IMG/VR virus record: IMGVR_UViG_3300049911_000068
Span: 1 to 40,408 of that record
DNA: 40,408 bases
Source of the DNA: a virus
Direction: 5' to 3' (one strand)
Shown here: piece by piece, positions 4,543 through 31,842 of the stretch
How positions within the stretch are numbered: position 1 is the stretch's first letter
How the letters are laid out: every line of letters starts with the position of its first letter
Notes under the pieces: model-generated
What the model saw: the letters and a program-made list of their open reading frames with translations, nothing else
Told to the model about the DNA's origin: nothing
The model's database searches: none
Made by a program: the position numbers and the translations under genes

Positions 4543-6219
4543 ATGAGCATATCTGACACGCAAATCGTTGCCGAAAATGTGACTGCAGAGGAATTGGAAC
4601 AGGTCAGTTGTGCGATATGGATGCTCACGTCGGCGATGTTGCTTGGCAACGGTCAAAAGTTTTCCTTCGACAATCACGAATACCAAATGGACTGGTATCA
4701 ATGCAATGCAAGGCGCAGATGTTTTATGAAGGCGACCGGAGGCGGGGTTTCTGAATGTGAGATATGGCGGTCGCTTCACGGTATGAAATATGGTATTTAT
4801 CCGCAAGGGGTAGCGTATTGGTTTCCAGACAATGATGCTATGGAAGATTACTCAAAGACCCGTTTCGGGCCTCTTTTCAAGTTAAATCCCATAACTTTAG
4901 GTAAATATGTCAAATCCAGCGCCAGAGGTGGGGCGGAAACGGCATCGGTTAAGAGAATAGGAAATGCCAATTTGTATCTTCGAGGCGCGAGATTGCAGCC
5001 AACCGGAGAAGGCGATACACGATTATCCTCAAAAACAAGCAGTATTCAAGTTGATAAGAATGATTTTGACGAAGTTGACCAGTTCGACCAGGACGTAATA
5101 GCCAAAATTTTAGGCAGGGCGGGTCATAGTGCGGTTCAAGAAGAGGTTTACATCGGCAATCCTTCCGATGAGGATTATGGCATTGATTTAATTTGGCAGG
5201 AGTCGGACCAGAGGCATTGGTTCAGGAAATGCTGTGGTAAATGGTCTTGTCCAGAAGAGGATTTCCCTGATATTTACATAAAATACGAGAATGGCAGGGG
5301 TTATATCGCCTGTAAGACGTGCGGCAAGAAGTTGGCGATTTGGATGGGTGAGGAAAATACTCAATGGGTCTCCAAAAGGCCGGAAAATACAAAAATGGTC
5401 GGCTGGCGATGGAGTCACTTAACAAGTTCATTCCACGACCCCGCCGATATTCTTGAAAGGTTCAATAATCCGCCGCAGGGAAATCTGGCTGATGTTTACC
5501 GGCTCGATTTGGGATTACCGTATTCTTCCGCTGAAGATAAGTTGCGCAGAGAGGATGTTTTGGCCTGTTGTGGACACGATGGTATGGCTGAACATCATTC
5601 CGGCCCGTGCGCTATGGGCGTCGATAACGATATGAAGAAGCACGTCGTTATTCTTATTCGCACCGGCAAAGACCGTTATCAAATCCTTAAAACAGCAATT
5701 TGCAACAGTTTTGAGGAAGTTCGCGACTTAAAAAAAAGATACAATGTCAAATCAACCGTTGCCGACAGGAAGCCCAATATCGACGCAGCCGTTCAGTTTC
5801 AGAAATCAGAATACGCGACAGGCAATAAGGTATGGTTATGCGAATACTCCGATACAATACTTGCCGAAACTCAATGGAATGACAATACCAGAATTGTTCG
5901 AGTTCACAGAACAGGTTGTTTTGACGGCACTCACCGTTTGTTCGCAAAAGGACAAATTGTCTTGCCGAGACAGAACGCCGCAATAGAGGAATTTGCCCGC
6001 CAGTGCTGCAATGTAGCTCGTTACAAAGAGAAGGACAAACGAACAGGACAGGAGGTTTATCGGTATAGGACGACAGGCGGCGATAAGGCAGACCACTTTA
6101 GAAACGCTTTGAATTACGCTTATTTGGCTGCATCGGGAAGCAGGATAGCGACTGTGAAATCAAAATATGCTTCGAGCAATGAATTGAAATTCTGTAAATG
6201 CGAAGACATTAAAATATAA
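4543..6219 (+). CDS. terL: Terminase large subunit (GpA-like)
   Basis: 558 aa. This is the packaging motor: an N-terminal ATPase and a C-terminal nuclease that cuts concatemers. A deviant Walker A (KATGGGVSE, about residues 63-71) resembles the lambda gpA type, with the lysine at the front rather than in GKS. The Walker B region is about FDEVDQFD. A four-Cys cluster (RKCCGKWSC ... ACKTCGKK) fits the zinc finger of the GpA family. The nuclease RNase H fold shows MGVDNDMKK, VADRKPN and DKADHFRNALNYAY, supplying three acidic residues. The start is the ATG 8 bases after the -10 box, and no upstream Shine-Dalgarno exists. It heads the virion operon; the small subunit is about 31 kb away at 37130, or about 7 kb if the genome is circular. 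Confidence 0.9.
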   Translation: MSISDTQIVAENVTAEELEQVSCAIWMLTSAMLLGNGQKFSFDNHEYQMDWYQCNARRRCFMKATGGGVSECEIWRSLHGMKYGIYPQGVAYWFPDNDAMEDYSKTRFGPLFKLNPITLGKYVKSSARGGAETASVKRIGNANLYLRGARLQPTGEGDTRLSSKTSSIQVDKNDFDEVDQFDQDVIAKILGRAGHSAVQEEVYIGNPSDEDYGIDLIWQESDQRHWFRKCCGKWSCPEEDFPDIYIKYENGRGYIACKTCGKKLAIWMGEENTQWVSKRPENTKMVGWRWSHLTSSFHDPADILERFNNPPQGNLADVYRLDLGLPYSSAEDKLRREDVLACCGHDGMAEHHSGPCAMGVDNDMKKHVVILIRTGKDRYQILKTAICNSFEEVRDLKKRYNVKSTVADRKPNIDAAVQFQKSEYATGNKVWLCEYSDTILAETQWNDNTRIVRVHRTGCFDGTHRLFAKGQIVLPRQNAAIEEFARQCCNVARYKEKDKRTGQEVYRYRTTGGDKADHFRNALNYAYLAASGSRIATVKSKYASSNELKFCKCEDIKI

Positions 6220-6228
6220 AGGTGAATT

Positions 6229-6420
6229 ATGGGCGGGGTATTCGGTAAGCAAAAAATTCCTAAAGCGCCTATCGCAGAACCATTGCCGACAGAACAACAA
6301 ACCGAACAGGCGGGCGAAGCGGAAATGCGAAAACAAAGGCGCAGAAGCGGATTTGAGAAAACATTTTTAACCGGTTCTCTTACTCCTAATACGGGCCTGA
6401 GAACAACACTCGGTGGATAA
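6229..6420 (+). CDS. Small conserved head-module protein, 63 aa
   Basis: A GGTGAA ribosome site precedes the ATG. The layout is typical of a small protein found between terminase and portal in many podoviruses: MGGVFG start, Pro/Glu/Gln-rich linker, then a basic helix (MRKQRRRSGFEKTFLTG) ending TTLGG. Probably disordered except for the helix. It may be a minor head or packaging factor, but no function is established. Confidence 0.65.
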   Translation: MGGVFGKQKIPKAPIAEPLPTEQQTEQAGEAEMRKQRRRSGFEKTFLTGSLTPNTGLRTTLGG

Positions 6421-6421
6421 T

Positions 6422-8059
6422 ATGCCTGACGAGAAAGCAAATCGCGTAAAACAGTTGTGGCTAAGAAAATTATCCAAGCAGGCAAATACGCGCACACTAT
6501 GGCAGGAAACATCTGATAACATATATCCATACGCAAAAATAACGTCAACGTATGAAGCGGGTGAAAAAAGAACAACCTACATTTACGATATGACTCCGAT
6601 GCTCGATATGCTTGATACGGTGTCGGGATTGAAGCACATTTTGATACCTACGGGCCAGCCGTTTTTTGCCGTCAAATCATCTCACGTCAACCAATCGCGT
6701 CCAGGCGTTCAGCAATATCTTGCTTATGTTGCCGAGGTCGCACACGAGAAAATCCTTAATTCTAATTTCGTAACAGAATATGACGACGTTCTAAGGTCTA
6801 TGATTGTATTCGGCCCAGGCGATATATATTCGGAATGGACGAAGAAAACAGGTCTTAATTACCGTTCATCGGAAATCGGAAGTTACGTTCTTTTTGAAGA
6901 CGAGTTCAAAAACATCATCGGCAGCATACACAAAATCAATCTGACCGCCGAAGAAGGATACAAAAAGTTCGGCAACAAAGCGGGTGATAAAGTTATAGAA
7001 TTAGCAAAAGACGATAAAAAGAAATACGATGTTTGCGAGTTCCTTCACCAGATATTGCCGAGAGAAAACAGGAATCCAAACCTGTCAGATACTTACAATT
7101 TGAATATGAAATACGAATCCCTATATGTCAATCTCAAGGAAGGCAATTTGTGCGATGAGGGCGGTTATCCAGAAAATCCCTATCACACCGCCCGATGGAT
7201 GAGGCCGGAAAAAGAGATAGACGGTAGGGGGATAGCGACCGAACTTCTTCCTCAGATTAAAGTCCTGTATCAACAGACGAAGGATTTTGTCGAGTGCGGC
7301 AACAGGCACAACAGACCACCGTATGAAGTCGGGCCTGACGTTGAAGGAGAAGTAAACCTTTCGCCAGGCGGCAGAACTGATGTTATGACAATGGGACAAA
7401 TCGCGCCGCTTGCGGGCGGCAATCTTAATGGTAATTTCCCAATAACCGAAAAATCGCTCGATAGGATGACGGAGATAATCCACAGGGCGTTTTTCAAAAC
7501 AGCATTTGCCCCCCTTGAAACACTGACCGGCGACCGAAGAACTGAACTTGAAATACGGGAGAGAATCCGGCAAACACTTCCCAAACTTGGCCCGCCTGTT
7601 GGCAGGATTTGGGTCGAATTACTTAATAAACTGCTTGAAAGGTCAATCCTGCTTTTGCTCAGGAATGGAGAAATTGAAAAGCCGCCCACCGAACTTGTTG
7701 GAACAAATTTCGGAATCGAATATATCGGCCCGTTTGCCCTTGCCCTGCGTAATTCACAGGCCAAAGGATTTCAAGAGTGGGTATCATTTGTCGCGCAAAT
7801 GGAGCAAATCTGGCCTGGCTCGAAAGATAATGTGGACGCCGACGATGCCATTATTCGTATGGGAACAACCTTCGGCGTCAATGTCGAGGATATTGCAACA
7901 ACCGAACAGAGAGACACGAAACGTCAGCAAAGGGCGCAGGAATTGGCTGAGCAGAAACAGGCGATAGTGGCACAGGTGGCTTCGGAAGCATATTCAAAAA
8001 CTACTAAAGAACCGGAAAAAGGCAGTCCAGCCGGTCAGTTAATGGGCGCAGGAGTTTAA
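6422..8059 (+). CDS. Portal (head-tail connector) protein
   Basis: 545 aa, the usual length of T7-type collar/portal proteins, which form the dodecameric ring through which DNA is packed and ejected. Recognisable stretches are the N-terminal helical wing (LWRETSDNIYPY-like LWQETSDNIYPYAK), GRGIATELLPQIKVLYQQ, and the long C-terminal helix ending in a Gln/Ala/Glu-rich tail. I set the start at the ATG 6422, directly after the previous stop; a GTG at 6413 would extend it by three residues. It matches the bacteriophage head-to-tail connecting protein family by pattern. Confidence 0.88.
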   Translation: MPDEKANRVKQLWLRKLSKQANTRTLWQETSDNIYPYAKITSTYEAGEKRTTYIYDMTPMLDMLDTVSGLKHILIPTGQPFFAVKSSHVNQSRPGVQQYLAYVAEVAHEKILNSNFVTEYDDVLRSMIVFGPGDIYSEWTKKTGLNYRSSEIGSYVLFEDEFKNIIGSIHKINLTAEEGYKKFGNKAGDKVIELAKDDKKKYDVCEFLHQILPRENRNPNLSDTYNLNMKYESLYVNLKEGNLCDEGGYPENPYHTARWMRPEKEIDGRGIATELLPQIKVLYQQTKDFVECGNRHNRPPYEVGPDVEGEVNLSPGGRTDVMTMGQIAPLAGGNLNGNFPITEKSLDRMTEIIHRAFFKTAFAPLETLTGDRRTELEIRERIRQTLPKLGPPVGRIWVELLNKLLERSILLLLRNGEIEKPPTELVGTNFGIEYIGPFALALRNSQAKGFQEWVSFVAQMEQIWPGSKDNVDADDAIIRMGTTFGVNVEDIATTEQRDTKRQQRAQELAEQKQAIVAQVASEAYSKTTKEPEKGSPAGQLMGAGV

Positions 8060-13281: not shown

Positions 13282-14181
13282 ATGTCGTTTACAGTAAACG
13301 AGTTAGCCCTTGTTAATCAGGCATTGGGCAGAATAGGCGCAGGAAACATATCTTCCGCAGAAAACGGTTCTACAACTTGCAATAATTATGTTCAAGCTAA
13401 TCTGCATTATTCGCATACCAGAGACGCACTTCTTCGCTCTTTTGATTGGGATTTCGCTGTAACTCAATCCAAACTTTCCTTAATAAGCACCTTGACATTA
13501 AACGTCCAACCATTGCCTTCGTCTTGGATTGTCGGCGATACTATAACAGGACTCACATCGGGAGTTACCGCTGAGATATTAACAGTAACATCAGAAACTG
13601 AATATGAAATCATCTACCTGTCGGGAACATTCACTTCCGGCGAGAGAATCACAAACGCGATGATTTACAATGTTTATTGGGAAGGAATACCTGTAACTTG
13701 GGAAGGCGAACAGGTTGTCTGGTATGACAATTCGGATTCAGATGAGGTCTTCTGCGGAACGGGTTATCCGGTCGTAACGTCAATCGAACCTGATTTCCAT
13801 TACGATTACCAATATCAACTACCCGATGATTTTGACCGGCTGACAAAATATCATCAGGCGCACTATTACTGGTATAACCGGTGGACAATTCAGGGCAAAA
13901 GATTCTTGAGCAGGGAAGGTTCGGCGGAAATAGAATACGTCAAAAAAGTAACCGACCCCGCCGATTTTGATGCGTTATTTTATGAGGTTGTCAAACTTCA
14001 ATTGGCTTTGAATTTATTACCTGTTCTTGCAGGAACACAAACTACATCTTTTGCTGAACGATTAGACAGAGATTTTACAAGGGCTTATGCAAGAGCAAGA
14101 GTGGTTTGCAGAGCGGAAACAAACAATACGGGAAGAAGCGACTGGAACTTGGCTCGCTTCAAGGAAAACAGAGTAGGTTAA
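13282..14181 (+). CDS. Tail tubular protein A-like (gp11-like adaptor)
   Basis: 299 aa. This family forms the ring joining portal to tail nozzle in T7-like phages. The N-terminal VNQALGRIGAGNISS ... TRDALLRSFDWDFA and the later YQLPDDFDRL ... KFLSREG-like RFLSREGSAEIEYV are the family landmarks. Between them is an insertion: a beta module with VGDTITGLTSGVTAEIL ... SGTFTSGERI (about residues 79-125), then three tandem heptapeptides (VYWEGIP, VTWEGEQ, VVWYDNS, about 131-151). The heptapeptide recurs in two downstream genes. I use ATG 13282; the upstream in-frame TTG at 13276 adds only two residues. Confidence 0.8.
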   Translation: MSFTVNELALVNQALGRIGAGNISSAENGSTTCNNYVQANLHYSHTRDALLRSFDWDFAVTQSKLSLISTLTLNVQPLPSSWIVGDTITGLTSGVTAEILTVTSETEYEIIYLSGTFTSGERITNAMIYNVYWEGIPVTWEGEQVVWYDNSDSDEVFCGTGYPVVTSIEPDFHYDYQYQLPDDFDRLTKYHQAHYYWYNRWTIQGKRFLSREGSAEIEYVKKVTDPADFDALFYEVVKLQLALNLLPVLAGTQTTSFAERLDRDFTRAYARARVVCRAETNNTGRSDWNLARFKENRVG

Positions 14182-14594: not shown

Positions 14595-15137
14595 ATGTCC
14601 TACGAAATAAAGATGGGTTATATCTCTGGATATAATCTCGTCTTTGCCGCATATCAACCGAATGGAAGTGGTCGTGGGATAGAGCAGCAACCCTTACCTG
14701 AATTGGCTGAAGGGTATTATGGTGCAACGCCGACCATCGACCTTGTGGCAGGAGACGAGGTAATCGCTTACGTTCTGGAAACAGTGACGTGGGAAGACGA
14801 GACAGTTTACGTTCTTGACTACGATAGTGTTTTTTGGGAAGGCGACAAAGTTCATTATGAAGGTGCGTGGGTAACTGATTATGATACAACCATAAACGAT
14901 ATAGTAACAAGTGTCGGCGCAGTTATCGGTGCGAATGAATATCTTTATGAAGCGGATTATTTTGATTTGCTACGGAACATTATCGACGGCATTACCATAG
15001 CCGAGAACAAGGTCATAAACGTTTATACTGTATCGGATACTGGTGGAGGGGCAGTAGCACAGGCGCAACGAGCGAGAGTATTAGAAAGCGCTGATATTGG
15101 TTATTTCAAGCGAAAGAGATTTGAAAAATATGGTTAA
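14595..15137 (+). CDS. Tail-module protein with heptapeptide repeats, 180 aa
   Basis: Starts 2 bases after the previous stop. Residues about 63-96 hold five units of the repeated heptapeptide pattern (VTWEDET, VYVLDYDS, VFWEGDK, VHYEGAW, VTDYDTT; the second unit is 8 long). The C-terminal half is helical and ends in a basic segment (GYFKRKRFEKYG). The family is unknown. The shared repeats suggest it packs against, or evolves with, tail tubular A and B. Its stop overlaps the start of the 63-aa gene at 15130. Confidence 0.6.
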   Translation: MSYEIKMGYISGYNLVFAAYQPNGSGRGIEQQPLPELAEGYYGATPTIDLVAGDEVIAYVLETVTWEDETVYVLDYDSVFWEGDKVHYEGAWVTDYDTTINDIVTSVGAVIGANEYLYEADYFDLLRNIIDGITIAENKVINVYTVSDTGGGAVAQAQRARVLESADIGYFKRKRFEKYG

Positions 15138-15321
15138 TGTTCCGATTATATCGTTCAACAGCGGTGAGGTATCTCCTTTGGTGGACGCGAGAAGTGACAC
15201 GGAAAAATACCCGTCTATGTGCCGTCATCTTGAGAATTTTATTCCAGAGATTTACGGTTGTGCAGAGCGCCGTCCTGGTCTTAAATTTGTTTACGAATCT
15301 GTTGTGCCGGTTGTGGAATAA
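15130..15321 (+). CDS. Detached N-terminal module of a tail tubular B-like protein, copy 1
   Basis: 63 aa, starting inside the end of the preceding gene. The sequence ISFNSGEVSPLVDARSDTEKY ... CRHLENFIPEIYG ... RRPGLKFVYES is the conserved N-terminus of tail tubular B-type proteins (FNxGExSPLxxxRxDxxxYxxxCxxLxNFxPxxxGxxxRRPGxxFV). The frame stops exactly where the conserved module ends. The following gene repeats the same module at about 55-60% amino-acid identity by eye. It may be an assembled free subunit, a leftover of recombination, or a short spacer subunit. Confidence 0.7.
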   Translation: MVNVPIISFNSGEVSPLVDARSDTEKYPSMCRHLENFIPEIYGCAERRPGLKFVYESVVPVVE

Positions 15322-15324
15322 GAT

Positions 15325-16065
15325 ATGACAAATATATCTTTAATATCTTTTAACGCTGGTGAATTAAGTCCAAAAACAGATGCCCGCAATGATACGGAAA
15401 AGTATCAATCTGGCTGCCGCCATCTCGAAAATATGATACCTCGAATTTATGGTGCAGTTGTGCGCCGACCTGGACTCAAATTTATATTTAGCACTGAACC
15501 ACCAAAACAAGGACTTTATGAGTATTGTGATAATCCGACAACACACGAATCAAGATTTAATTGCGCATTAGTATCTATGGGTTGCCAGACAATTAGTCCG
15601 CAAACTACTCATTATATAACTGGATTCAAAACTTATTGGTATAAAGAGGTTGGTTCGCCAGAGGGGAATTTACATTGTCGCGTAGAAACAACGGTCTGGA
15701 ATCCTTTATCTGGTGGATATTATGAGCCAAGTGGAACTATTCTTGAGACGTCTGGCACAAGTTATGATATAAGCAAATTTCCTTCTGGTAGTCCTTACAA
15801 ACTATGTATTTTTGTTTTCGATGGAACAACCCGTTTAATCACTGGAACTACATACGCACTTGTTTTTTATAACTCCGATTTTGTGGGCAATCCTTCTTAT
15901 AACTATGTAAAAAGCAGGGGTCTAAAAAGTGTTGGTTCTGGTGATGGATACACAAGAGGTTCGTCTGGTGCTTTTGGTGGAACATCTTGGGGTTATTTAG
16001 CTCAGGATGAAGATTGCTGGTTTGAGGAAACTGGAGCATTAACGGCTGCACATTTAACCGGATAA
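15325..16065 (+). CDS. Tail tubular B-like N-terminal module (copy 2) fused to a jelly-roll domain
   Basis: 246 aa, 3 bases after copy 1. Residues 1-62 repeat the tail tubular B N-terminus (ISFNAGELSPKTDARNDTEKY ... RRPGLKFIF). Residues about 70-240 form a beta domain with ITGFKTYWYKEVGSPEGNLH, TRLITGTTYALVFY and GGTSWGYLAQDEDCWFEETG. I know this pattern (kvGSPxGxlxxxI ... LxxGTxYalv ... GxSW) from jelly-roll modules in environmental phage tail and virion proteins that are probably ligand-binding. The bases here look more AT-rich than the neighbours, consistent with an acquired cassette. The rest of the tube protein begins 5 bases later at 16070. Confidence 0.7.
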   Translation: MTNISLISFNAGELSPKTDARNDTEKYQSGCRHLENMIPRIYGAVVRRPGLKFIFSTEPPKQGLYEYCDNPTTHESRFNCALVSMGCQTISPQTTHYITGFKTYWYKEVGSPEGNLHCRVETTVWNPLSGGYYEPSGTILETSGTSYDISKFPSGSPYKLCIFVFDGTTRLITGTTYALVFYNSDFVGNPSYNYVKSRGLKSVGSGDGYTRGSSGAFGGTSWGYLAQDEDCWFEETGALTAAHLTG

Positions 16066-16069
16066 TTTT

Positions 16070-18844
16070 ATGGCCAAAATACGACTGATTCCGTTCATTT
16101 ATTCATCCGAGGTCTCCTATGATGTCGAATTAAGCAATGAGTATATGCGGTTTTTTTATGACGGCGCAGTTCTTCTGGACGACAATGATGACGAGGTATG
16201 GATACAAACTTCGTATCTAACGGAACATTTATTCCAGCTGCAATATCATCAAGTCGGCGATGTGATGTGGATTACGCATCCGTTTTATGCGCCGAGAAAA
16301 CTGACCAGAACGAGTGCGACATCGTTTGCACTTACGATTATACCTTTCAAAACTGGGCCGTTTATGATAAGAAACGACCTGATAGACCCTGACAATCCGA
16401 GTAATATAACAATGACTTCAAGCACAACAGGTCTATCGGTGGGCACGGCGGAATATAGTTTGACTGGACACGGAGACGGCGTTAGTAAATATGGCATCAA
16501 TCATATTCGGGATAACTGGTGGGATGGAACTGCGGCGCACGGTGTAAATGGCTCGCAAGCTGATTATTGCGGTGGTGGCCGGATGTCGGACGGCAGAACT
16601 GTTTATATCACTTACACTGTAACTTATGCTGACGCCATAGCAACACTTACCGAAATAATCATTGATTATATCTGTATGTCTCACGACCAAACAACTGACC
16701 TTACCCTGAATACCTATACAAAAAGAGGTTTGCGGGTTTGTGATAGCGCCGGAACGTGGACAGTAGTTATCGACCCAGAAGTTGTTGATGCCGATTTTTC
16801 AGCGACTTCTTATCACGATAAGCCAGGAAGTTTGATTGGTTATGATTCTACGGCAACAATAACCGGCACTTGGACGGACGTGACAAAAATAGAAATTTAT
16901 CTTTACGCAGTCGCAGGCGAACACTCGACGGCGTGCGCCATTTTTAATGTGAACGCTGGAGAAAACGCTTACATACCAGGCACATTAACTGCTTCAAGCG
17001 ATTACTTTGAAGATGGTATGGCTGGGACGCTTTTTTCTCTGATTCACCAGCGGTCGGTTACTATCCTTACACTTAATGCCGTTGGATACAGTGCCGCAAT
17101 ATATGCCAAAGGAACTTTCAGATTCAAAACTCACGGAACGTGGACAGGGACTGTCGAACTACAAAGGAACGATAATGATGCGGGCTGGGATACATACAGA
17201 ACTTTCATATACAAAAACGATGGAAATGTTCAGGAATCGTTCGTTGAGGACGGCATAAGTGTTCAGTATCGTATATATGTTCACGATGGTATGACTGGAG
17301 ATTTTGGCTCAGACCTCACTTTGAACGATATATTCCGAGAGGGCATTGTAAAAATAACTTCTATTGGTGATATTGTTACTTATGAAGGCGAGGTTGTTAC
17401 ATATGAAGATGAAGTCGTGATTTTAGAAAGTGCCACTATCGCAAATATATCCGTCATAACGCCTTTGGAATTGGCCGAACCGACAAAAAGATGGTCAGAA
17501 GGCGCGTGGAGTGATTTAAGAGGTTTCCCGACTTCGGTTGCATTTTTTGAGGACAGATGTATTTACGGCGGTATGCAGACAATACTGCCGAGCGGGGCGA
17601 AATTGCTTACATTATGGTTAAGTCATTCGGGCGATTACGAGAACTTTAGCGCAGGTTTACTTGCCGCCGATTCATATTCAGTTACAGTTGCGACTAGCGA
17701 GGACATTGCCTGGGTTGAAGCGACTGAAAATCTATTGGTGGCCACTTTTGCCGAGGTTTGGAAAATTACATCAAACAGAATGGAACAGTTTTTAACTCCT
17801 ACAAATACTGTTCCCAAGTATCAATTCGGGTTCGGTGGTAATGAGATTCAGCCGGTAGATGCTGGAGTAGCGTTACTCTATACAAACGGTCAGCAAGTTA
17901 AGGAACTTACTTTTGATAGCGGCGCGGATAAATTTAACGCACCCGATTTATCTGCTCTGGCAGAACATTTAACATCGAGCGCAAGAATAGTCAATATGGC
18001 CTTGCAGTCCGCTCCCGACTGTATTCTATGGTGCGTTCTCGATACTGGAGATGTTATTATTCTGGTTTATGACCGCGAGCAAAACTGCGTTGGTTGGGCA
18101 AAAGTGCCGATAGACGGCGATGTTTACAGCGTATGTATTACACCAGGTGAATACGAGGACAATGTTACATTGGCTGTTTTCAGGACGATAACCGGCGAAA
18201 CGATAACTTGGGAAGATATAACGGTAACTTACGAGGATGAAATCGTAACCGATGTCATTTATGCAATTTACATTGAGAGATTCGCTCCGAGGGTATTTGG
18301 GACTTTAATCGAAGACGCCTTCTTCGTCGATTGCGGAAAAACCTTTTTGGCAACAACTGCGACAACTACGGTTACGGGGGCAACCCATTTGGTCGGCGAA
18401 ACAGTTGCAATTTTGGCCGATGGCGTGGTTCAGGATTCAAAGGTTGTGGATGCTAACGGTGAATTTGAACTCGATACAGCAGCAAATAAAGTTCAATATG
18501 GTATTGCTTATAAATCGAAACTTATGCCGATGAAACCGGTTGTTAATACCCAAATGGGCAGTTCCGCCGCGAGCATTGTATCCTGCAAAGAAATGGGAAT
18601 ATCTTTCCTGAATACAATGGACGCCCAATATGGTGTGGCGGACGATAAGCTATTCGATATAAACTACGATGACCCGCGCTGGCAGAATAATGCAGATTCG
18701 ATAGCGGGTTTGTTCACAGGGACAGTTTCGGTATCTGTCGATGGCGGATTCTCAATAGATAATAACCTAATTATTTCGACAGACGCGCCGCTGCCGTGTA
18801 TTGTTAGGGCACTGATTCCGAAAGTTGAGGTAACTGGACGATAA
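16070..18844 (+). CDS. Tail tubular protein B-like body (nozzle)
   Basis: 924 aa. The first residues MAKIRLIPFIYSSEVSYDVE ... YMRFFYDG ... QYHQVGDVMWITHPFYAPRKL are normally internal in tail tubular B-type proteins, immediately after the RRPG module now carried by the two small genes upstream. So the family's N-terminus has been split off. The protein has an inserted beta/jelly-roll region (about residues 115-310), TLWLSHSGDYENFSAG and KEMGISFLNTMDAQYG typical of the family, and heptapeptide pairs at about 435-450 (VTYEGEV, VTYEDEV) and 711-727 (ITWEDIT, VTYEDEI). The ribosome site is weak, so it may rely on coupling. It forms the tail nozzle by family. Confidence 0.75.
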   Translation: MAKIRLIPFIYSSEVSYDVELSNEYMRFFYDGAVLLDDNDDEVWIQTSYLTEHLFQLQYHQVGDVMWITHPFYAPRKLTRTSATSFALTIIPFKTGPFMIRNDLIDPDNPSNITMTSSTTGLSVGTAEYSLTGHGDGVSKYGINHIRDNWWDGTAAHGVNGSQADYCGGGRMSDGRTVYITYTVTYADAIATLTEIIIDYICMSHDQTTDLTLNTYTKRGLRVCDSAGTWTVVIDPEVVDADFSATSYHDKPGSLIGYDSTATITGTWTDVTKIEIYLYAVAGEHSTACAIFNVNAGENAYIPGTLTASSDYFEDGMAGTLFSLIHQRSVTILTLNAVGYSAAIYAKGTFRFKTHGTWTGTVELQRNDNDAGWDTYRTFIYKNDGNVQESFVEDGISVQYRIYVHDGMTGDFGSDLTLNDIFREGIVKITSIGDIVTYEGEVVTYEDEVVILESATIANISVITPLELAEPTKRWSEGAWSDLRGFPTSVAFFEDRCIYGGMQTILPSGAKLLTLWLSHSGDYENFSAGLLAADSYSVTVATSEDIAWVEATENLLVATFAEVWKITSNRMEQFLTPTNTVPKYQFGFGGNEIQPVDAGVALLYTNGQQVKELTFDSGADKFNAPDLSALAEHLTSSARIVNMALQSAPDCILWCVLDTGDVIILVYDREQNCVGWAKVPIDGDVYSVCITPGEYEDNVTLAVFRTITGETITWEDITVTYEDEIVTDVIYAIYIERFAPRVFGTLIEDAFFVDCGKTFLATTATTTVTGATHLVGETVAILADGVVQDSKVVDANGEFELDTAANKVQYGIAYKSKLMPMKPVVNTQMGSSAASIVSCKEMGISFLNTMDAQYGVADDKLFDINYDDPRWQNNADSIAGLFTGTVSVSVDGGFSIDNNLIISTDAPLPCIVRALIPKVEVTGR

Positions 18845-19254
18845 TGAATTTGCGCGATATGACAGATGCCGATATTGAATTTATGAAATCGCACTCGATT
18901 TCGCGCGGTATCTTTAACAAACAGCCGCAGGAAATCGCCGTATCGGTCTGTATCGAAGAAAATGGTATTCCACTTGCCGTCGGCGGGATACAGATGATAA
19001 ACTGCACGACGGCGTGGGCGTGGTGTGACCTTAGCGACGAATCGGGCAAGCATATTGTCATTGTATATCGTATCATAAGAACTTGGTTAGAAGAAATGGT
19101 TGAGAAGATGGGAATAAAGCGTTTGCAGTGCTATGTAGAACGGGATTTTGTTGAAGGTCACAATATGGTTCGACATTTGGGATTTGACTTTGAATCGACC
19201 GCAGAGAATTTCGTCGGCGATAAACCTGCGGACATTTACCGGAGGTTCACATAA
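18844..19254 (+). CDS. GNAT-fold acetyltransferase-like protein (gp13-like position)
   Basis: 136 aa; the ATG shares one base with the previous stop. Beta strand and helix order and the stretch RTWLEEMVEKMGIKRLQCYVERDFVEGHNMVRHLGFDF resemble the C-terminal half of GNAT acetyltransferases (xxNxxAxRxxExxGF). In T7-like phages a GNAT-like protein (gp13) sits at this place and is needed for virion assembly. The acetyl-CoA pyrophosphate-binding loop (R/QxxGxG/A) is not clear, so catalytic activity is doubtful. Confidence 0.7.
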   Translation: MNLRDMTDADIEFMKSHSISRGIFNKQPQEIAVSVCIEENGIPLAVGGIQMINCTTAWAWCDLSDESGKHIVIVYRIIRTWLEEMVEKMGIKRLQCYVERDFVEGHNMVRHLGFDFESTAENFVGDKPADIYRRFT

Positions 19255-19872: not shown

Positions 19873-21300
19873 ATGGCAGGCACTTTTCCAGGACAACAAA
19901 TCGAATATGCAGACGTATCGCCGAGCGGCAGAATACCTGCAGTCGGCGCGCAAATGCCAGCGACGGGGGGATTAGAGGCAATAGGGGGGGCGTTGCAACA
20001 GTTAGGTGAGAAAGTCGATGCTCAAGAGTCCGCTTTAGAATTATCGCAAGGTCAGCGTCAAATCGAGGAAAAGGGTTTTGCTCTTGTCAATTCTGCGACG
20101 ACAGACCCTGATGCCAACGAAAAGGCGTGGGCGCAATACGAAAAGGACACACAAGGCATTATCGGCTCGATGAAACACGGCAATGCCCAACGCGCCTTGC
20201 AGATACACGCAAATGAGCATTTACCGCAATGGCAACAGACATTCAAGACGCGAGAACTTGCCGTAAGAAGCGCAAATGCCGCCGACCAGATGGAGTTTGA
20301 AGCGACTGCGCTTCTCGGTCGAGGCGATGTCGGCGGAGCGGCAACGATATATCAAAACGCGAGAGATACAAAAGCCATAACTCAGAAAAAATATGATTTC
20401 CTAATGGCCAACATCTTTACCAATTCCGCCCTTGAAATGGCGAGGATTGATATTGGAACAGGTAATTACGAGCAGGCGCAAAAACAACTTGAAGGATTAA
20501 AGGGGCTTAATGACGCACAACTTGACCAACGCGACCGCCTGCTTGCCGACCTGCATAAAGTAAAAGACCCGCAGGTTGAACAGGATAGAGTTTCCATTGC
20601 CGAACAGATTGAGGCAGGAACGGCTACATTCGCCTCGATTCAGGCGACCACTCTTGACCAGAAAGAAAAGGATTCATCTTGGACGCACGCTCAGGAAGTA
20701 ACGAGAATGAGAGCGAAGGGCGAAACTATTGCAACTGACCAGGATTCTCGTATTGCCGCAAACGAAGTGGTGTTGGCCTATAAAGACGGTTTGATTCAGC
20801 GCAAAGACGCTTTGGCGGGCATTTCAAAATATCAAACTAAAATAAACCCGACGGAGTTCAAACAGATTACCGACGACATTTATCATTACGCCGACAACAA
20901 AGACCCGATTAAACAACGGAAAATCAGCGAATACAACAAGACGTTCTCGTATCTGGCGAGCAAAAACAAACTGGTCGATGGCGATAGAAAGACAAATATG
21001 CTTGCCGCTATCGAATATCAGGCGGCATTTGGTAACTGGACGAGAGATAATCCCGATGCCAGCGATGCGGAAATAACTGATAAATTCAATGAACTCACAA
21101 AAAAAATCAATCTTTGGTGGGATACACCATCGAGGGATTTGGCGGTAGTTCGTGAAAGAACTGCGGCATTAACGCCGGTAGCAATCCCAACAACCTTACA
21201 ACCCGCTCGTCCGGTTAATATCCCTCCCGATGCTGTATGGGATGATACCCGTAAGATGTGGACGTATATTCGCAATGGTCGATTGAAGGGGATTAAATAA
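19873..21300 (+). CDS. Internal virion / ejection protein (gp15-like)
   Basis: 475 aa, with AGGTGAT upstream. Long helical protein (GALQQLGEKVDAQESALELSQGQRQIEEKG, many QxxxxA repeats) as expected for internal virion protein C. The C-terminus is Pro-rich and ends WTYIRNGRLKGIK. By position and helical character it is probably part of the DNA ejection channel. Sequence similarity to T7 gp15 is not visible by eye. The stop overlaps the next start (TAATG). Confidence 0.65.
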   Translation: MAGTFPGQQIEYADVSPSGRIPAVGAQMPATGGLEAIGGALQQLGEKVDAQESALELSQGQRQIEEKGFALVNSATTDPDANEKAWAQYEKDTQGIIGSMKHGNAQRALQIHANEHLPQWQQTFKTRELAVRSANAADQMEFEATALLGRGDVGGAATIYQNARDTKAITQKKYDFLMANIFTNSALEMARIDIGTGNYEQAQKQLEGLKGLNDAQLDQRDRLLADLHKVKDPQVEQDRVSIAEQIEAGTATFASIQATTLDQKEKDSSWTHAQEVTRMRAKGETIATDQDSRIAANEVVLAYKDGLIQRKDALAGISKYQTKINPTEFKQITDDIYHYADNKDPIKQRKISEYNKTFSYLASKNKLVDGDRKTNMLAAIEYQAAFGNWTRDNPDASDAEITDKFNELTKKINLWWDTPSRDLAVVRERTAALTPVAIPTTLQPARPVNIPPDAVWDDTRKMWTYIRNGRLKGIK

Positions 21301-24300
21301 TGCCCGAAGAAATCGACTTAGGGATTGCGCCGGAAGGCGAAGTTGACTTGGGCGTTGCTACCGTCGAACCCGATATTGCCGCTGTCCCTATTGAACTCCA
21401 GAAAGAATCGCAGGCAAGGCAACTTACCGCCTACGTCCTTGCCAATGAAAGCGGTCTTGATGTTAATGACGTAATTGATAATTACGCCAATATCACTGAA
21501 CAACTTTACGGCGTCAAGAATATGCACCCTGGTTCTGTTCTTGGCCGAATGGAAATGGAGGGCAAGGTCATTACTCCTGAAAAAATGGACGAAGATATAT
21601 CGGTAATAGCGGAATCAATCGGTGCAGGCAAGCCACCTGATAAAGAAGTTTTAAGACGAGCGCAATCAGCTTCACACAACAGCAATATCAAATTTGCCAG
21701 GGAAAATTTCTATAACGAAAACTCCGAGGTGTTGAAGTTAGCAGAAGGTAAACCCGCAATGCCGCCTGTCGGTGAAGTTTTGGCAATGCCCGTTTACGAA
21801 AGAGAGAAATTGCTGGATGGTAATTATTTTGCGGCTTTAGTCGCTGCTGTGCCAACAAAACAAGATGCGAAGAATTTGCTCAGGGAGCGCACGGCGGTAT
21901 TCGGCGAAGCAATCCGCAACTACGATAGCGGCGCAAAAGATGAAATAGCAAAAAAATATGCGCAGGCCGAAACGGGTTTCGTATCGGAGTTTGGCAAAGC
22001 GGCGAAAAAAACAACTGCAAGTATCGGCGCAGGTGCATTGGGTATGATACCCAAAGAAGTTCAACCGGAGTTGGCTGAATTAAAAGACGTATTTTTGGAT
22101 TATATGAAAAGTCCCGAACTTACGCCTTCGGATACATCCTCGGCGATGAATTTCATAGGCAGGTCAACTGGCTCGGTTGTTCCGTATGTAATGGCAACGG
22201 TTGTTACTGGCGGATTAACCGCCGAGGCACTTGCCGGAACAATCAGTGCAAAGATTGCCCAATCAATCGGCGCAGGCACAATTGCTTTTGCGACGATGGG
22301 AGAAGAAGCCAAACAGAATGCTCTCGATAAAGGCGCATCCGAACAGGAAGCAGAACTGGAACGCCTGATTGTCGGTGGCGGAAGCGCGGTTTTAATGGCC
22401 GTTCAGGTAGACAAATTATTCCGGTTTGCCAATCCGACGGCGCAAAAGATGTTGATTGATAATATCACACAATCCACAAAAAACGCAATGATTCAATCCG
22501 GTGGCAGGTTGACTAAAGAAGTTGTCGCTCTCGGCATAAACGGCGGCGTTACTATGGCTGCACAGGAAGGTTTAATAATCGCTACTCCAGCGTATTTAAG
22601 GGACGAATATCCAAAGACGCCTGGTGGTAATCCCGATTGGTTCGCTATTGCAACGCAAATGACAGAAGCAGGGGCGGGTGGCGCATTTGCAAATATCATT
22701 GTCGGCGGCGGATTCAGGTCTTATGAATCCGTGAGAACATCGGGATACAAAAATAAACTGGCTCGATTGATTTCGATAACTGAAAATCTTGATTACGCCA
22801 CATCAAAGAAGGTCGCATCAAATATCCTGCACCGACAACTTGACGGGCAAGGCGATTTTGATGGACTTTACAAAGAAGAGGTCGGCAAATACAGGTTGCC
22901 TGCTCAGGTAACAGTAGAACCAACGGTATTGCCTGATATTCCTGTTACAGCAAAACCGACGCCGATACCGCCTCGAAACAGAATGGATGCTATTCGGGAC
23001 AGGATTAACCAACTTGTCGAAGCGTCCAAGACACCAGAAGGAGTTAAGAATCTCGAAAGGTTCGCCGATGAAATGACGGCACTTGATACAGAATACGAAT
23101 TTCTCAAAAACCTTGATAATAGAAGCGTTGACCAACTTGTTCGGGATGCCCGCAGGCGCGGCATAGAAATTCCAAAGCATAAATCGAAGCAGAAACTTAT
23201 CAGGGCTTTGCGTTGGGAAGATACCGATTTGGCAAGAACCAATGCTCGTCTTGACCAGACAAATACCGATTTAAGAATCGAAGCCAAAGAGGATGGGACT
23301 TATGATTTGATGATTCCGGCAGGCGAGGCGGGAGTTTTTAACGTCAGGAATTTCAAAGATGTTGTGGCGGCAGAAGAATACGCAAATACAATAGTGAACC
23401 CCGAATTGCAACCAGCGTTCACATCGGAATTAACGCCAGAAATGAGAGGTAGAAAATTCTGGCAGGAAAAAGGCATTGCTAAAGAAGTGGCCAAAAAACC
23501 TCAATGGGCAACAGTCGAGGAAGCATTGGCTGCCGAAGGATTATTGAAGCCACTTAAGCCAGGTTCAAAAGAATCTCAAAGGGCGGCAGAAATCAGGGGT
23601 CAATACAATACTTCAACTCCTCATCCCGAAAAACTGCCGGAAGATTTCGTCAAGGCGAATATGGGTAAGGTCAAACCCTCGATTGTCGGCAAAATCGGCA
23701 AACTCGTAACCAGTATCGGAAAGGGCATAGATTTTCTTGCAGGCGATATGCTTACCCGCGCACAGAATATATCACCGGAAGTCGGCGTCAGAATCAGCGA
23801 ATATATTCACGGCGTCCGCAAAAGGACAACCGACTGGATTCAAGGCGTAGAGCCGTTTCTTAGAAAAGTAGAGGCGATAACCGACGAATCCGACCGGCGC
23901 AGAATGGAACTCGCCGCTCGTAATCTTTCCGAAGGCGATATTGACGACCTCGTTAAGAAATACAATCTCGAAGCGGAATATCAGACATTCAGGAATACAA
24001 TGGACGATGCTTACAATAATCAAAAAGCGGTGGGCGTCGATATGGATTACCGGAGGACATATTTTCCATTGTCTATTAAAGACCTCGACGGCTTGTTGGA
24101 GTTTTTGGGAACAACCGAAAAACATTCACTGATTGAAGAATCTATCAATAAGAAAAAAGCGAAACAAGGTGGTAGGCCACTCAGTGAGGAGCAGAAAATA
24201 TCTTTGGTCAACTCATTGCTGCGCGGTTACACGACGGACAATATATCTCTGGCCCGCCCTGGACACGCAAAAGAGAGGACACTTGGGATTATAGATTCAC

Positions 24301-25673
24301 AGATTGAGCAGTTCCTGCACGATTGGGATACGAGCGTTATACATTATCTTGAAAAATCGGCCAATGTCGTCGAACAGAGACGGTTTTTCGGCAAACAATC
24401 CGATGAAGTTGTTGCAGCAAGGAAAACGGTTGAAGCGTTAAAAACTCGAATCTTCAAACTCAAAAACGAATCGTTAATAGACGAGGACAGGATACGGACT
24501 GCCTCGAAGAAACTGAATGAATTGCAGGATGCTTACGAATCACTGAATGAAGCTCCTGTCGATGAGTCAATCGCCGCAGAGGTTACACGACTTGCCGAAG
24601 GCGGCAAATTAACTTCCTCACAACAGAAAGATTTGCAAGGCATATTGACTGGTATTTTCAATAGAAAACCGACCGGCAAGGTTATGAGAACGGCGATACG
24701 TTGGACATATTATGACCTGCTTAATAATGTAACCCAATACCTGACGCAATTGGGTGATTTATCTTTCTCTTTATACCGCGCTCCACTGCAATTTCCGAAG
24801 GCGTTTGGCAAAGCCCTCGTCGGCAAAAGCGATATAACTCTGCACGATATTTACGTTCATCCGTTGGGACAAGAATGGACGGACAGTGGCCTTGAAACAT
24901 TCGGCGAAAAGATTATGTTCGCTATTCGCAAGGGCGATACTGTCGGCAAAGAAACATTCATCAATTCCGTGTTTGAGAACTACCGCGCCAAACTGCAAAA
25001 AGACCCAATGAGAGAACGAAAGCGACTTACAAAAGTATTCGGCAAGGAAACGGCGACAGTTATAGCCGACCTGCAAGCGGGCAAGGTTTCCGAGAACGTC
25101 AAATATCTATTAGCAACAGAGTTATCAGGTATACAACCAATATCCATAGCCGATATGCCGGAAGGATACGCAAAGTCCGGCAATATGAGATTTCTATATG
25201 TTTTGAAAAGCTTTTCACTCAAGCGTTTGGATTTTATGCGGACAGAGTCGTGTTTTTTTTTTTCCCACCCCAATCACAAACCCAAGGATTTTATGACAGG
25301 AATGGGGCGGCTAATCTGGATGACGACGCTATTCACCGCAACAGGAGCATCGACTGATTTGGTGAAGGATTTCATCTACGGTAAGCCGATTGATGTTTCT
25401 GACGAACTTTTGAATAACTTTTTGCAGATATTTCTGCTTTCCCGATATGCTGTTCGTAAAGTTAAAGAAGGCGCAAAGGGCGTTCTGACGCAAAACATTT
25501 TCCCGACCAAGAGCATTGATAATGCCTCAAAAGATTTAGTTGTTCATCTAAGCGATAATGAGGACGGCAAAGGATGGGAATTAGTTAAGAGCATACCGCT
25601 TGTTGGTGATATACTATATTGGCGGTTTGGCGAAGGCAGACGCAAGTTAGAAGAAAGGACACCAAGTGAGTAG
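21300..25673 (+). CDS. Very large internal virion / ejection protein (gp16-like)
   Basis: 1457 aa, the size expected for gp16-type proteins (about 1,300-1,500 aa). It has a helical N-terminus, several Gly/Ala hydrophobic stretches (about residues 240-350, for example GALGMIPKE and ATVVTGGLTAEALAGTISAKIAQSIGAG) that could be membrane-interacting, a long helical middle, and a C-terminus ending ELVKSIPLVGDILYWRFGEGRRK. The last motif (IPLxGxxxYWxFGxG) recurs in ejection proteins of environmental podoviruses. No lysozyme or transglycosylase motif seen. An 11-base T tract (25253-25263) interrupts the coding region in frame. Confidence 0.75.
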   Translation: MPEEIDLGIAPEGEVDLGVATVEPDIAAVPIELQKESQARQLTAYVLANESGLDVNDVIDNYANITEQLYGVKNMHPGSVLGRMEMEGKVITPEKMDEDISVIAESIGAGKPPDKEVLRRAQSASHNSNIKFARENFYNENSEVLKLAEGKPAMPPVGEVLAMPVYEREKLLDGNYFAALVAAVPTKQDAKNLLRERTAVFGEAIRNYDSGAKDEIAKKYAQAETGFVSEFGKAAKKTTASIGAGALGMIPKEVQPELAELKDVFLDYMKSPELTPSDTSSAMNFIGRSTGSVVPYVMATVVTGGLTAEALAGTISAKIAQSIGAGTIAFATMGEEAKQNALDKGASEQEAELERLIVGGGSAVLMAVQVDKLFRFANPTAQKMLIDNITQSTKNAMIQSGGRLTKEVVALGINGGVTMAAQEGLIIATPAYLRDEYPKTPGGNPDWFAIATQMTEAGAGGAFANIIVGGGFRSYESVRTSGYKNKLARLISITENLDYATSKKVASNILHRQLDGQGDFDGLYKEEVGKYRLPAQVTVEPTVLPDIPVTAKPTPIPPRNRMDAIRDRINQLVEASKTPEGVKNLERFADEMTALDTEYEFLKNLDNRSVDQLVRDARRRGIEIPKHKSKQKLIRALRWEDTDLARTNARLDQTNTDLRIEAKEDGTYDLMIPAGEAGVFNVRNFKDVVAAEEYANTIVNPELQPAFTSELTPEMRGRKFWQEKGIAKEVAKKPQWATVEEALAAEGLLKPLKPGSKESQRAAEIRGQYNTSTPHPEKLPEDFVKANMGKVKPSIVGKIGKLVTSIGKGIDFLAGDMLTRAQNISPEVGVRISEYIHGVRKRTTDWIQGVEPFLRKVEAITDESDRRRMELAARNLSEGDIDDLVKKYNLEAEYQTFRNTMDDAYNNQKAVGVDMDYRRTYFPLSIKDLDGLLEFLGTTEKHSLIEESINKKKAKQGGRPLSEEQKISLVNSLLRGYTTDNISLARPGHAKERTLGIIDSQIEQFLHDWDTSVIHYLEKSANVVEQRRFFGKQSDEVVAARKTVEALKTRIFKLKNESLIDEDRIRTASKKLNELQDAYESLNEAPVDESIAAEVTRLAEGGKLTSSQQKDLQGILTGIFNRKPTGKVMRTAIRWTYYDLLNNVTQYLTQLGDLSFSLYRAPLQFPKAFGKALVGKSDITLHDIYVHPLGQEWTDSGLETFGEKIMFAIRKGDTVGKETFINSVFENYRAKLQKDPMRERKRLTKVFGKETATVIADLQAGKVSENVKYLLATELSGIQPISIADMPEGYAKSGNMRFLYVLKSFSLKRLDFMRTESCFFFSHPNHKPKDFMTGMGRLIWMTTLFTATGASTDLVKDFIYGKPIDVSDELLNNFLQIFLLSRYAVRKVKEGAKGVLTQNIFPTKSIDNASKDLVVHLSDNEDGKGWELVKSIPLVGDILYWRFGEGRRKLEERTPSE

Positions 25674-31066: not shown

Positions 31067-31690
31067 TCAATCTCCTTCGAGCCATAAATCACAAAACAGG
31101 GACATATCTTCAATACTTATGTTATTGTCTATTGTAAAAGCGGCAAACGAAAAGAAGTTATGAATAATAGGAAATGGGCCTGCACACCCGTATTCAATGT
31201 TCTGATACACTTGAGCAAAACCGCTAGTGGTCGCGGTCCAACTGCTACCGCATATAAGATGTGTTTGGTTGTTTACCGAATACCCTGTAGGGTTTACGAA
31301 TCCATCAAAGTAATATGCCCCTCCCGCTAAGCCGCAAATAAATAATCTATAAGGATAACCTTCTCTTTCCTCTGATGAATATAATACTGCCTGCAGTCCT
31401 GAATCTGTTACTGTGCCGTGTTCAACGGTTATTTCAGAAGAACTGTAATTATCGTATTTTGGCGATTCCCAACTATAACGATAATCTTCGCTTATACTAA
31501 GAATGAACAAACAATTTATTGTTCTATCTGTCTTTATATAACAATCGCTTTGAGCAAAAGAGACGCCGTCAAAATCATCTACGTCATATACAACAACGTA
31601 AATAGTTTCCGGTAAGCAGTCAGGAGTGGCGAAAGCTGTGCTGACAAATAAAAATAGGATGATGGTTAGATTTATCATTTTAACGGCCAT
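31067..31690 (-). CDS. Secreted protein with signal peptide and dockerin-like C-terminus
   Basis: 207 aa from the ATG at 31690, which is 6 bases after TATAAT on the minus strand. MAVKMINLTIILFLFVSTAFA is a clear signal peptide with a likely cut after AFA. The mature part is Ser/Tyr/Thr-rich with several cysteines (residues DCLPE, SDCYIK, INCLF, FICGLAGG, ICGSS, YGCAG) suited to disulphides. It ends ISIEDMSLFCDLWLEGD, resembling half of the dockerin-like tail (DfxxLaxxWLe) seen in many Planctomycetota secreted proteins. A secreted gene inside a replication arm is unusual and may alter the infected cell's surface. Confidence 0.65.
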   Translation of the reverse strand: MAVKMINLTIILFLFVSTAFATPDCLPETIYVVVYDVDDFDGVSFAQSDCYIKTDRTINCLFILSISEDYRYSWESPKYDNYSSSEITVEHGTVTDSGLQAVLYSSEEREGYPYRLFICGLAGGAYYFDGFVNPTGYSVNNQTHLICGSSWTATTSGFAQVYQNIEYGCAGPFPIIHNFFSFAAFTIDNNISIEDMSLFCDLWLEGD

Positions 31691-31696
31691 AAGTTT

Positions 31697-31723
31697 ATTA
31701 TACACGCAAAAACACTTTTTCAA
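31697..31723 (-). promoter_or_regulatory. Promoter for the secreted-protein gene (leaderless start)
   Basis: Minus strand TTGAAA (31723-31718), 15-base spacer, TATAAT (31702-31697), then 6 bases to the ATG. No Shine-Dalgarno. Short spacer lowers the confidence. Confidence 0.5.
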
Positions 31724-31842
31724 GAAAATTCTGTGCTTATTCATAGTGCGAAATCAAATAAAATACGCACAAGTTCGGTTTGTAGCGACTGTATCGTATA
31801 TGATAATTCCTTTCTACTTTTTTGCCGCCTCAATCGCGGTCT

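Follow-up and report, generated by a model that had tools for sequence, protein, structure and literature searches.

In the IMG/VR record IMGVR_UViG_3300049911_000068, analysed over its whole length of 40,408 nucleotides (the window), three consecutive ORFs (P1, P2 and P3) follow the adaptor-like gene, where described relatives have a single gene for the tail nozzle. Is this nozzle encoded in separate pieces, and why is its N-terminal module (NM) present twice, once as a free gene and once in front of another domain? The coordinates of all features discussed are given in Table 1.

Table 1. Positions of the nozzle pieces and of other features in the window.
Feature	Position	Strand	Remarks
Adaptor-like gene (tail tubular A / gp11-type)	13282-14181	+	PHROG 394, E=1e-31; upstream of P1
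P1, stand-alone nozzle N-terminal module (NM), 63 aa	15130-15321	+	PHROG 376 positions 5-57, matched by residues 3-55 (E=4e-14)
P2, second NM plus 184-aa beta domain, 246 aa	15325-16065	+	PHROG 376 positions 6-60, matched by residues 4-58 (E=7e-16); probable adhesin cassette
NM part of P2	15325-15504	+	NM profile mapping; codon z=-3.0
Beta domain of P2	15505-16062	+	Predicted all-beta; moderate confidence over residues 93-190
P3, nozzle body without NM, 924 aa, start MAKIRLIPF	16070-18844	+	PHROG 376 to 711/712; best stretch 180-711 (E=1e-120)
In-frame extra stretch within P3, past the RNDL motif	16391-16990	+	Boundaries approximate, read from sequences
136-aa gene directly 3' of the nozzle	18844-19254		PHROG 4177
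1457-aa protein	21300-25673
Fibre-like gene	26916-28643		Codon z=-6.9
Secreted-looking protein	31067-31744	-

Identity of the three ORFs

All three ORFs match PHROG 376, a tail protein family with a profile of 712 positions, and a second family, phrog_20269, in which P1 and P2 match at 9-56 and P3 at 64-187. According to these positions, P1, P2 and P3 are colinear with one protein, of which the N-terminal module is present twice. This agrees with the original prediction, which had recognized the module of tail tubular B-type proteins in P1 and at the front of P2, and a normally internal sequence at the start of P3. A Pfam search of P1 to P3 gave nothing useful. The whole 40.4-kb record contains exactly two NM copies, which are 63% identical to each other. 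Compared with intact proteins, as had been proposed, each copy keeps 18 of the 18 positions conserved in one-chain relatives. The module itself is present in intact genes, e.g., in the isolated Pelagibacter phage HTVC203P, in which NM and body match inside one annotated gene.

Among solved structures, the NM profile also matches the tail nozzle of Carin-1 (8ck1) and LME-1 orf18 (9efk), and P3 matches 8ck1 in a search of the PDB sequences (E=8.5e-49). The model of the one-chain relative L028 (mean pLDDT 87) has a TM score of 0.82 to 8ck1 and about 0.58 to T7 gp12; the nozzle fold was seen for this intact relative and P3 of the window is tied to 8ck1 by sequence. Due to the sequence match of P3, the NM profile matches and the fold match of L028, P1 plus P3 is, judged by homology, a podovirus nozzle of the T7 gp12/Carin-1 type. 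The podovirus-like virion block includes terminase, a portal-type ‘head-tail adaptor’ (PHROG 332), major capsid protein, the PHROG 394 gene and then P1 to P3. All parts of the profile are there, and the locus departs from the described one-chain members by its three ORFs, each of which has its own start. P1 and P2 share a frame, with TAA-GAT between them, and P3 uses another one. An SD-like GGA is located 7 nt 5’ of the ATG of P2 and likewise 7 nt 5’ of the ATG of P3. The extra stretch within P3 is longer than its counterpart in short relatives and its codon composition is normal. The 136-aa gene behind P3 has, besides its PHROG 4177 match, a weak match to PHROG 308 (internal virion protein) and appears acetyltransferase-like by eye.

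Split nozzles among relatives

Relatives were collected in two scans of viral contigs using NM alignments and profile mapping of the NM, of the domain that follows it (D2) and of two propeller segments, which yielded 91 usable loci. In 24 of these, NM and D2 are encoded separately, with the split at the same NM|body border as in the window, and a second break site is found inside the propeller, between ...FFEDRCIYGG and ...GDYENF, in 17 of the 91. On a tree of the body segments, the NM|body splits need at least 9 changes and the propeller splits at least 6. Splits cluster in a clade of eight rows (support 100) and a group of 35 rows (support 93) which includes the window, with L112 as an outlier. 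With regard to the body, the window is closest to L010, L003 and L011, each of which has the split between NM and D2. One contig, L089, has a three-chain nozzle consisting of the NM, a D2 chain and a chain with a GLUG-like domain plus propeller.

An SD-like motif at normal spacing was present at 31 of 41 break borders, compared to 28% of random ATGs, and 28 of the 41 lie no more than 30 nt from the upstream stop codon; the breaks look like real gene borders. For the free NMs, dN/dS was 0.05-0.32 and the mean number of conserved positions kept was 17.06 of 18, equal to that of the one-chain NMs, which indicates that stand-alone NMs are under purifying selection. In the clade of eight contigs, about 1 kb holding further genes separates the free NM from the body. 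Since the free NM is still conserved there, stand-alone NMs are stable genes.

P1 and P2 being in frame with just TAA-GAT between them could suggest that the pieces are joined into one long chain by stop codon readthrough or frameshifting. Frames and start signals make this very improbable: P3 does not share the frame of P2, and the pieces of the relatives are in varying frames, often with overlaps of 4 or 8 nt and with SD-like motifs of their own. Furthermore, a fusion of P1, P2 and P3 would have two NMs in a row, and whole genes are located between NM and body in one clade. Sequencing or assembly errors, or decay of the gene, come to mind for a locus from a metagenomic contig and are hardly credible here. 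Breaks at these points are also found in about 30 other contigs, in which the surrounding DNA differs; this recurrence contradicts a sequencing error, and dN/dS of the free modules is well below 1.

The original prediction had named a nozzle assembled from separate chains as an alternative to a cassette layout. As far as coding is concerned, this alternative has held, as dozens of related contigs encode their nozzle in two or three chains. At the level of the sequences, splitting and modularity of the nozzle are established.

In L020, L022, L034, L040, L041, L044 and L046, small conserved genes, two or three in number (MASGIYNRFKANLMNK..., MATKPTPGGSDGT...), lie between the free NM and a body with an extra N-terminal domain of roughly 300-340 aa.

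Domains behind the NM copies

Two NMs were found in seven contigs (the window, L003, L055, L058, L059, L081 and L152), which are split at the NM|body border in every case where the body is visible. In the window and in L059 the free NM comes first and the fused NM second, and in L003 a fused NM with a 415-aa tail containing GLUG motifs precedes the free NM. Both NMs carry tails in L081 (GLUG-like, about 340 aa), in L055 and L058 (with aromatic-Glu repeats) and in L152 (378 and 82 aa). The cargo behind the extra NM is thus beta-sandwich-like in the window, of GLUG type in L003, L059 and L081, and made of aromatic-Glu repeats in L055 and L058; GLUG was above the Pfam cut-off in L003 and L055 only, and the others were grouped by sequence similarity. 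Similar cargo domains form families across insertion sites: GLUG-type cargo is also found at the propeller break or before D2 in L014, L043, L053, L066 and L089, and beta-sandwich-like plus Fn3-like cargo at these places in L005, L027, L068 and L070. Of the proposed cassette layout, the different domains behind a constant module were found as expected in other phages, namely among the two-NM contigs. Fission also occurs at the propeller site, which makes the layout broader than a single cassette.

Arginine R20 is kept in all single-NM and one-chain NMs examined and lost in 4 of the 11 fused NMs of two-NM contigs (L055, L058 and two in L081), copies which are not independent. Hence, the way in which the slot is used may differ among fused copies, and some may be specialised for a different position, e.g., matching a twelve-fold adaptor.

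Two smaller repeated elements were observed. Seven-residue Y/W-E-G/D-x-x-V repeats (e.g., YEGEVVTYEDEVV, WEGIPVTWEGEQV) occur in three virion genes (13282-14178, 14595-15134 and 16070-18841) with 2-4 per gene versus 0.1-0.3 in shuffles. Similar repeats make up the NM tail of L032, and this is possibly a mobile mini beta repeat. A module GDTITG..SGVTAEILTVTSETEYEI..LSGTFT.GE is present in the adaptor-like gene (13282-14178) and again in the L006 nozzle (5590-6936), where it separates NM from D2; two different tail genes thus have a similar insert.

The P2 tail was predicted, with moderate confidence, as all-beta with a core pLDDT of mostly 65-81, and the NM part of the P2 model had a pLDDT below 50. 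A fold search of the model against the PDB gave no significant match, and in the PHROG search of P2 the nozzle module was the sole match. Profile comparison, by which alone the tail was placed in a beta family, linked it to the beta domains at the break sites of relatives with E=2.2e-5 at 15% identity (shuffles 0.13-0.57). A direct scan of viral contigs for relatives of the P2 tail found none. We call the modelled tail beta-sandwich-like instead of using the earlier description as a jelly-roll, which is not proven. It is a probable adhesin domain.

Origin of P2

The synonymous third-position G+C, corrected for amino acids, was determined for the tested virion genes. P1 (z=-0.3) and P3 (z=-1.5) are normal and P2 is strongly low (z=-6.6). 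Of the other virion genes tested, the fibre-like gene alone deviates to a comparable extent; Pfam and PHROG searches with it gave no match. The closest NM to P1 is the free NM of L005 with 80% identity, and the NM of P2 has no particular neighbour (68% at best). Likewise, the first NM groups with L005 and the second does not in the NM tree, which is weak and based on short sequences. Because the composition of P2 is foreign, including that of its own NM, and because the neighbours of the two NMs differ, we prefer import of the entire gene, NM tag included, over a local tandem duplication. The earlier description of the module as duplicated is therefore doubtful. No closer relative lacking P2, which would show the import directly, was found.

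Between paired NMs, synonymous divergence has reached saturation in the window, L003 and L059 and is 2.3-2.5 in L081 and L055, and yet the protein sequences remain similar; in the window, the saturation may partly reflect the import. These data bear on the possibility that the nozzle consists of P1 and P3 only and that P2 is a recent import, unincorporated or heading for loss. The foreign codon composition and the scan without a relative of the P2 tail would fit, but the frame of P2 is open, its NM has kept every conserved position, NM-fused genes recur with unrelated cargoes, and paired NMs remain alike as proteins at high synonymous divergence. We regard this explanation as rather improbable.

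Proposed assembly

The C-terminal platform barrel of T7 gp12 sits on the adaptor ring and receives three strands from the 45 N-terminal residues of the protein, and each of the six platforms touches two adaptor subunits (PMC6702177). From its position and the overall fold match, the NM of the window would be equivalent to this N-terminal stretch. The reading we favour, with some confidence, is a nozzle made as separate chains, with P1 as N-terminal module and P3 as the rest. P1 would complete the platform barrel of P3 in trans, the NM-platform contact being taken from T7. The second NM, that of P2, is fully conserved, and P2 should therefore fit the same kind of slot as P1. Some slots of the hexameric nozzle would be occupied by P1 and some by P2, which presumably arrived as a whole NM-tagged gene. 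Where present, P2 would add a small number of adhesin-like domains to the tail, beside the fibre position. Docking in trans, shared slots, stoichiometry and adhesion or receptor binding are what we infer for these proteins.

P2 could also be part of a separate-chain nozzle and bind elsewhere than P1, e.g., with six P1 and six P2 modules matching the twelve-fold adaptor. The two adaptor subunits contacted by each T7 platform (PMC6702177) would provide for this, and the loss of the invariant R20 from fused NMs in L055, L058 and L081 suggests a different environment. Both modules of the window, however, keep all conserved positions, one NM suffices for most split relatives, and L081 is without any R20-bearing NM; such an arrangement is considered unlikely. 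More tentatively than in the favoured reading, the platform might be an open docking ring on which any protein tagged with an NM of about 60 residues is loadable in trans, resulting in mixed-occupancy nozzles. New surface domains might then be gained, as part of the same tentative reading, via one imported NM-tagged gene with the essential nozzle gene untouched.

Host and neighbouring genes

The contig with the three-chain nozzle, L089, was binned as a Phycisphaerae bacterium. The NM was found in 5 of 397 Phycisphaerae genomes; of the four besides L089, three have a one-chain nozzle and one is too fragmentary to judge, and no split was seen among these four. The C-terminus of the secreted-looking protein resembles a dockerin-like ending common in Planctomycetota; a Pfam search of this protein gave no support. 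Together with L089, this ending weakly hints at a host among the Planctomycetota. Judged by where its gene lies, the 1457-aa protein is probably an internal virion (ejection) protein; Pfam and PHROG searches assigned it to no family.

Relation to known systems and significance

The nozzles of T7 (gp12; 7boy, 6r21) and Carin-1 (8ck1) resemble the nozzle of the window in NM and body sequence, in fold (via L028) and in following the adaptor gene; LME-1 orf18 (9efk) and the Pelagibacter phage tail tubular B are sequence-matched nozzles, also encoded after the adaptor gene. All of these are one chain, whereas the window has separate genes for NM and body and an extra NM fused to another domain. Tail fibres and spikes, such as the depolymerases of Klebsiella phages, have a conserved N-terminal anchor and an exchangeable distal domain. 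P2 shares this plan of a constant N-terminal attachment module and a variable distal part, with GLUG-type, beta-sandwich-like or aromatic-Glu repeat tails behind the NM copies. In contrast to fibres and spikes, P2 has a piece of the nozzle as its anchor, and the genome of this virus encodes that piece a second time, as a structural part. Strand complementation is known from split proteins and donor-strand systems and, by analogy, a short strand-rich segment would likewise complete a barrel in trans here. The open literature searched contains no report of split nozzles or of cassettes tagged with a nozzle module, which is no proof of novelty.

The nozzle is the gate which holds and releases the phage DNA and, as far as the searched literature shows, it has one chain per subunit. 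If the proposed assembly is true, an essential gate split at two fixed places tolerates being built from several chains, and the natural split point could be used for studying the assembly of the platform barrel. The docking piece would also serve as a tag for exchangeable domains and thus offer a second route, besides the fibres, to altered surface contacts. Related viruses with different domains at the same place suggest a plug-in way of changing what the tail touches.
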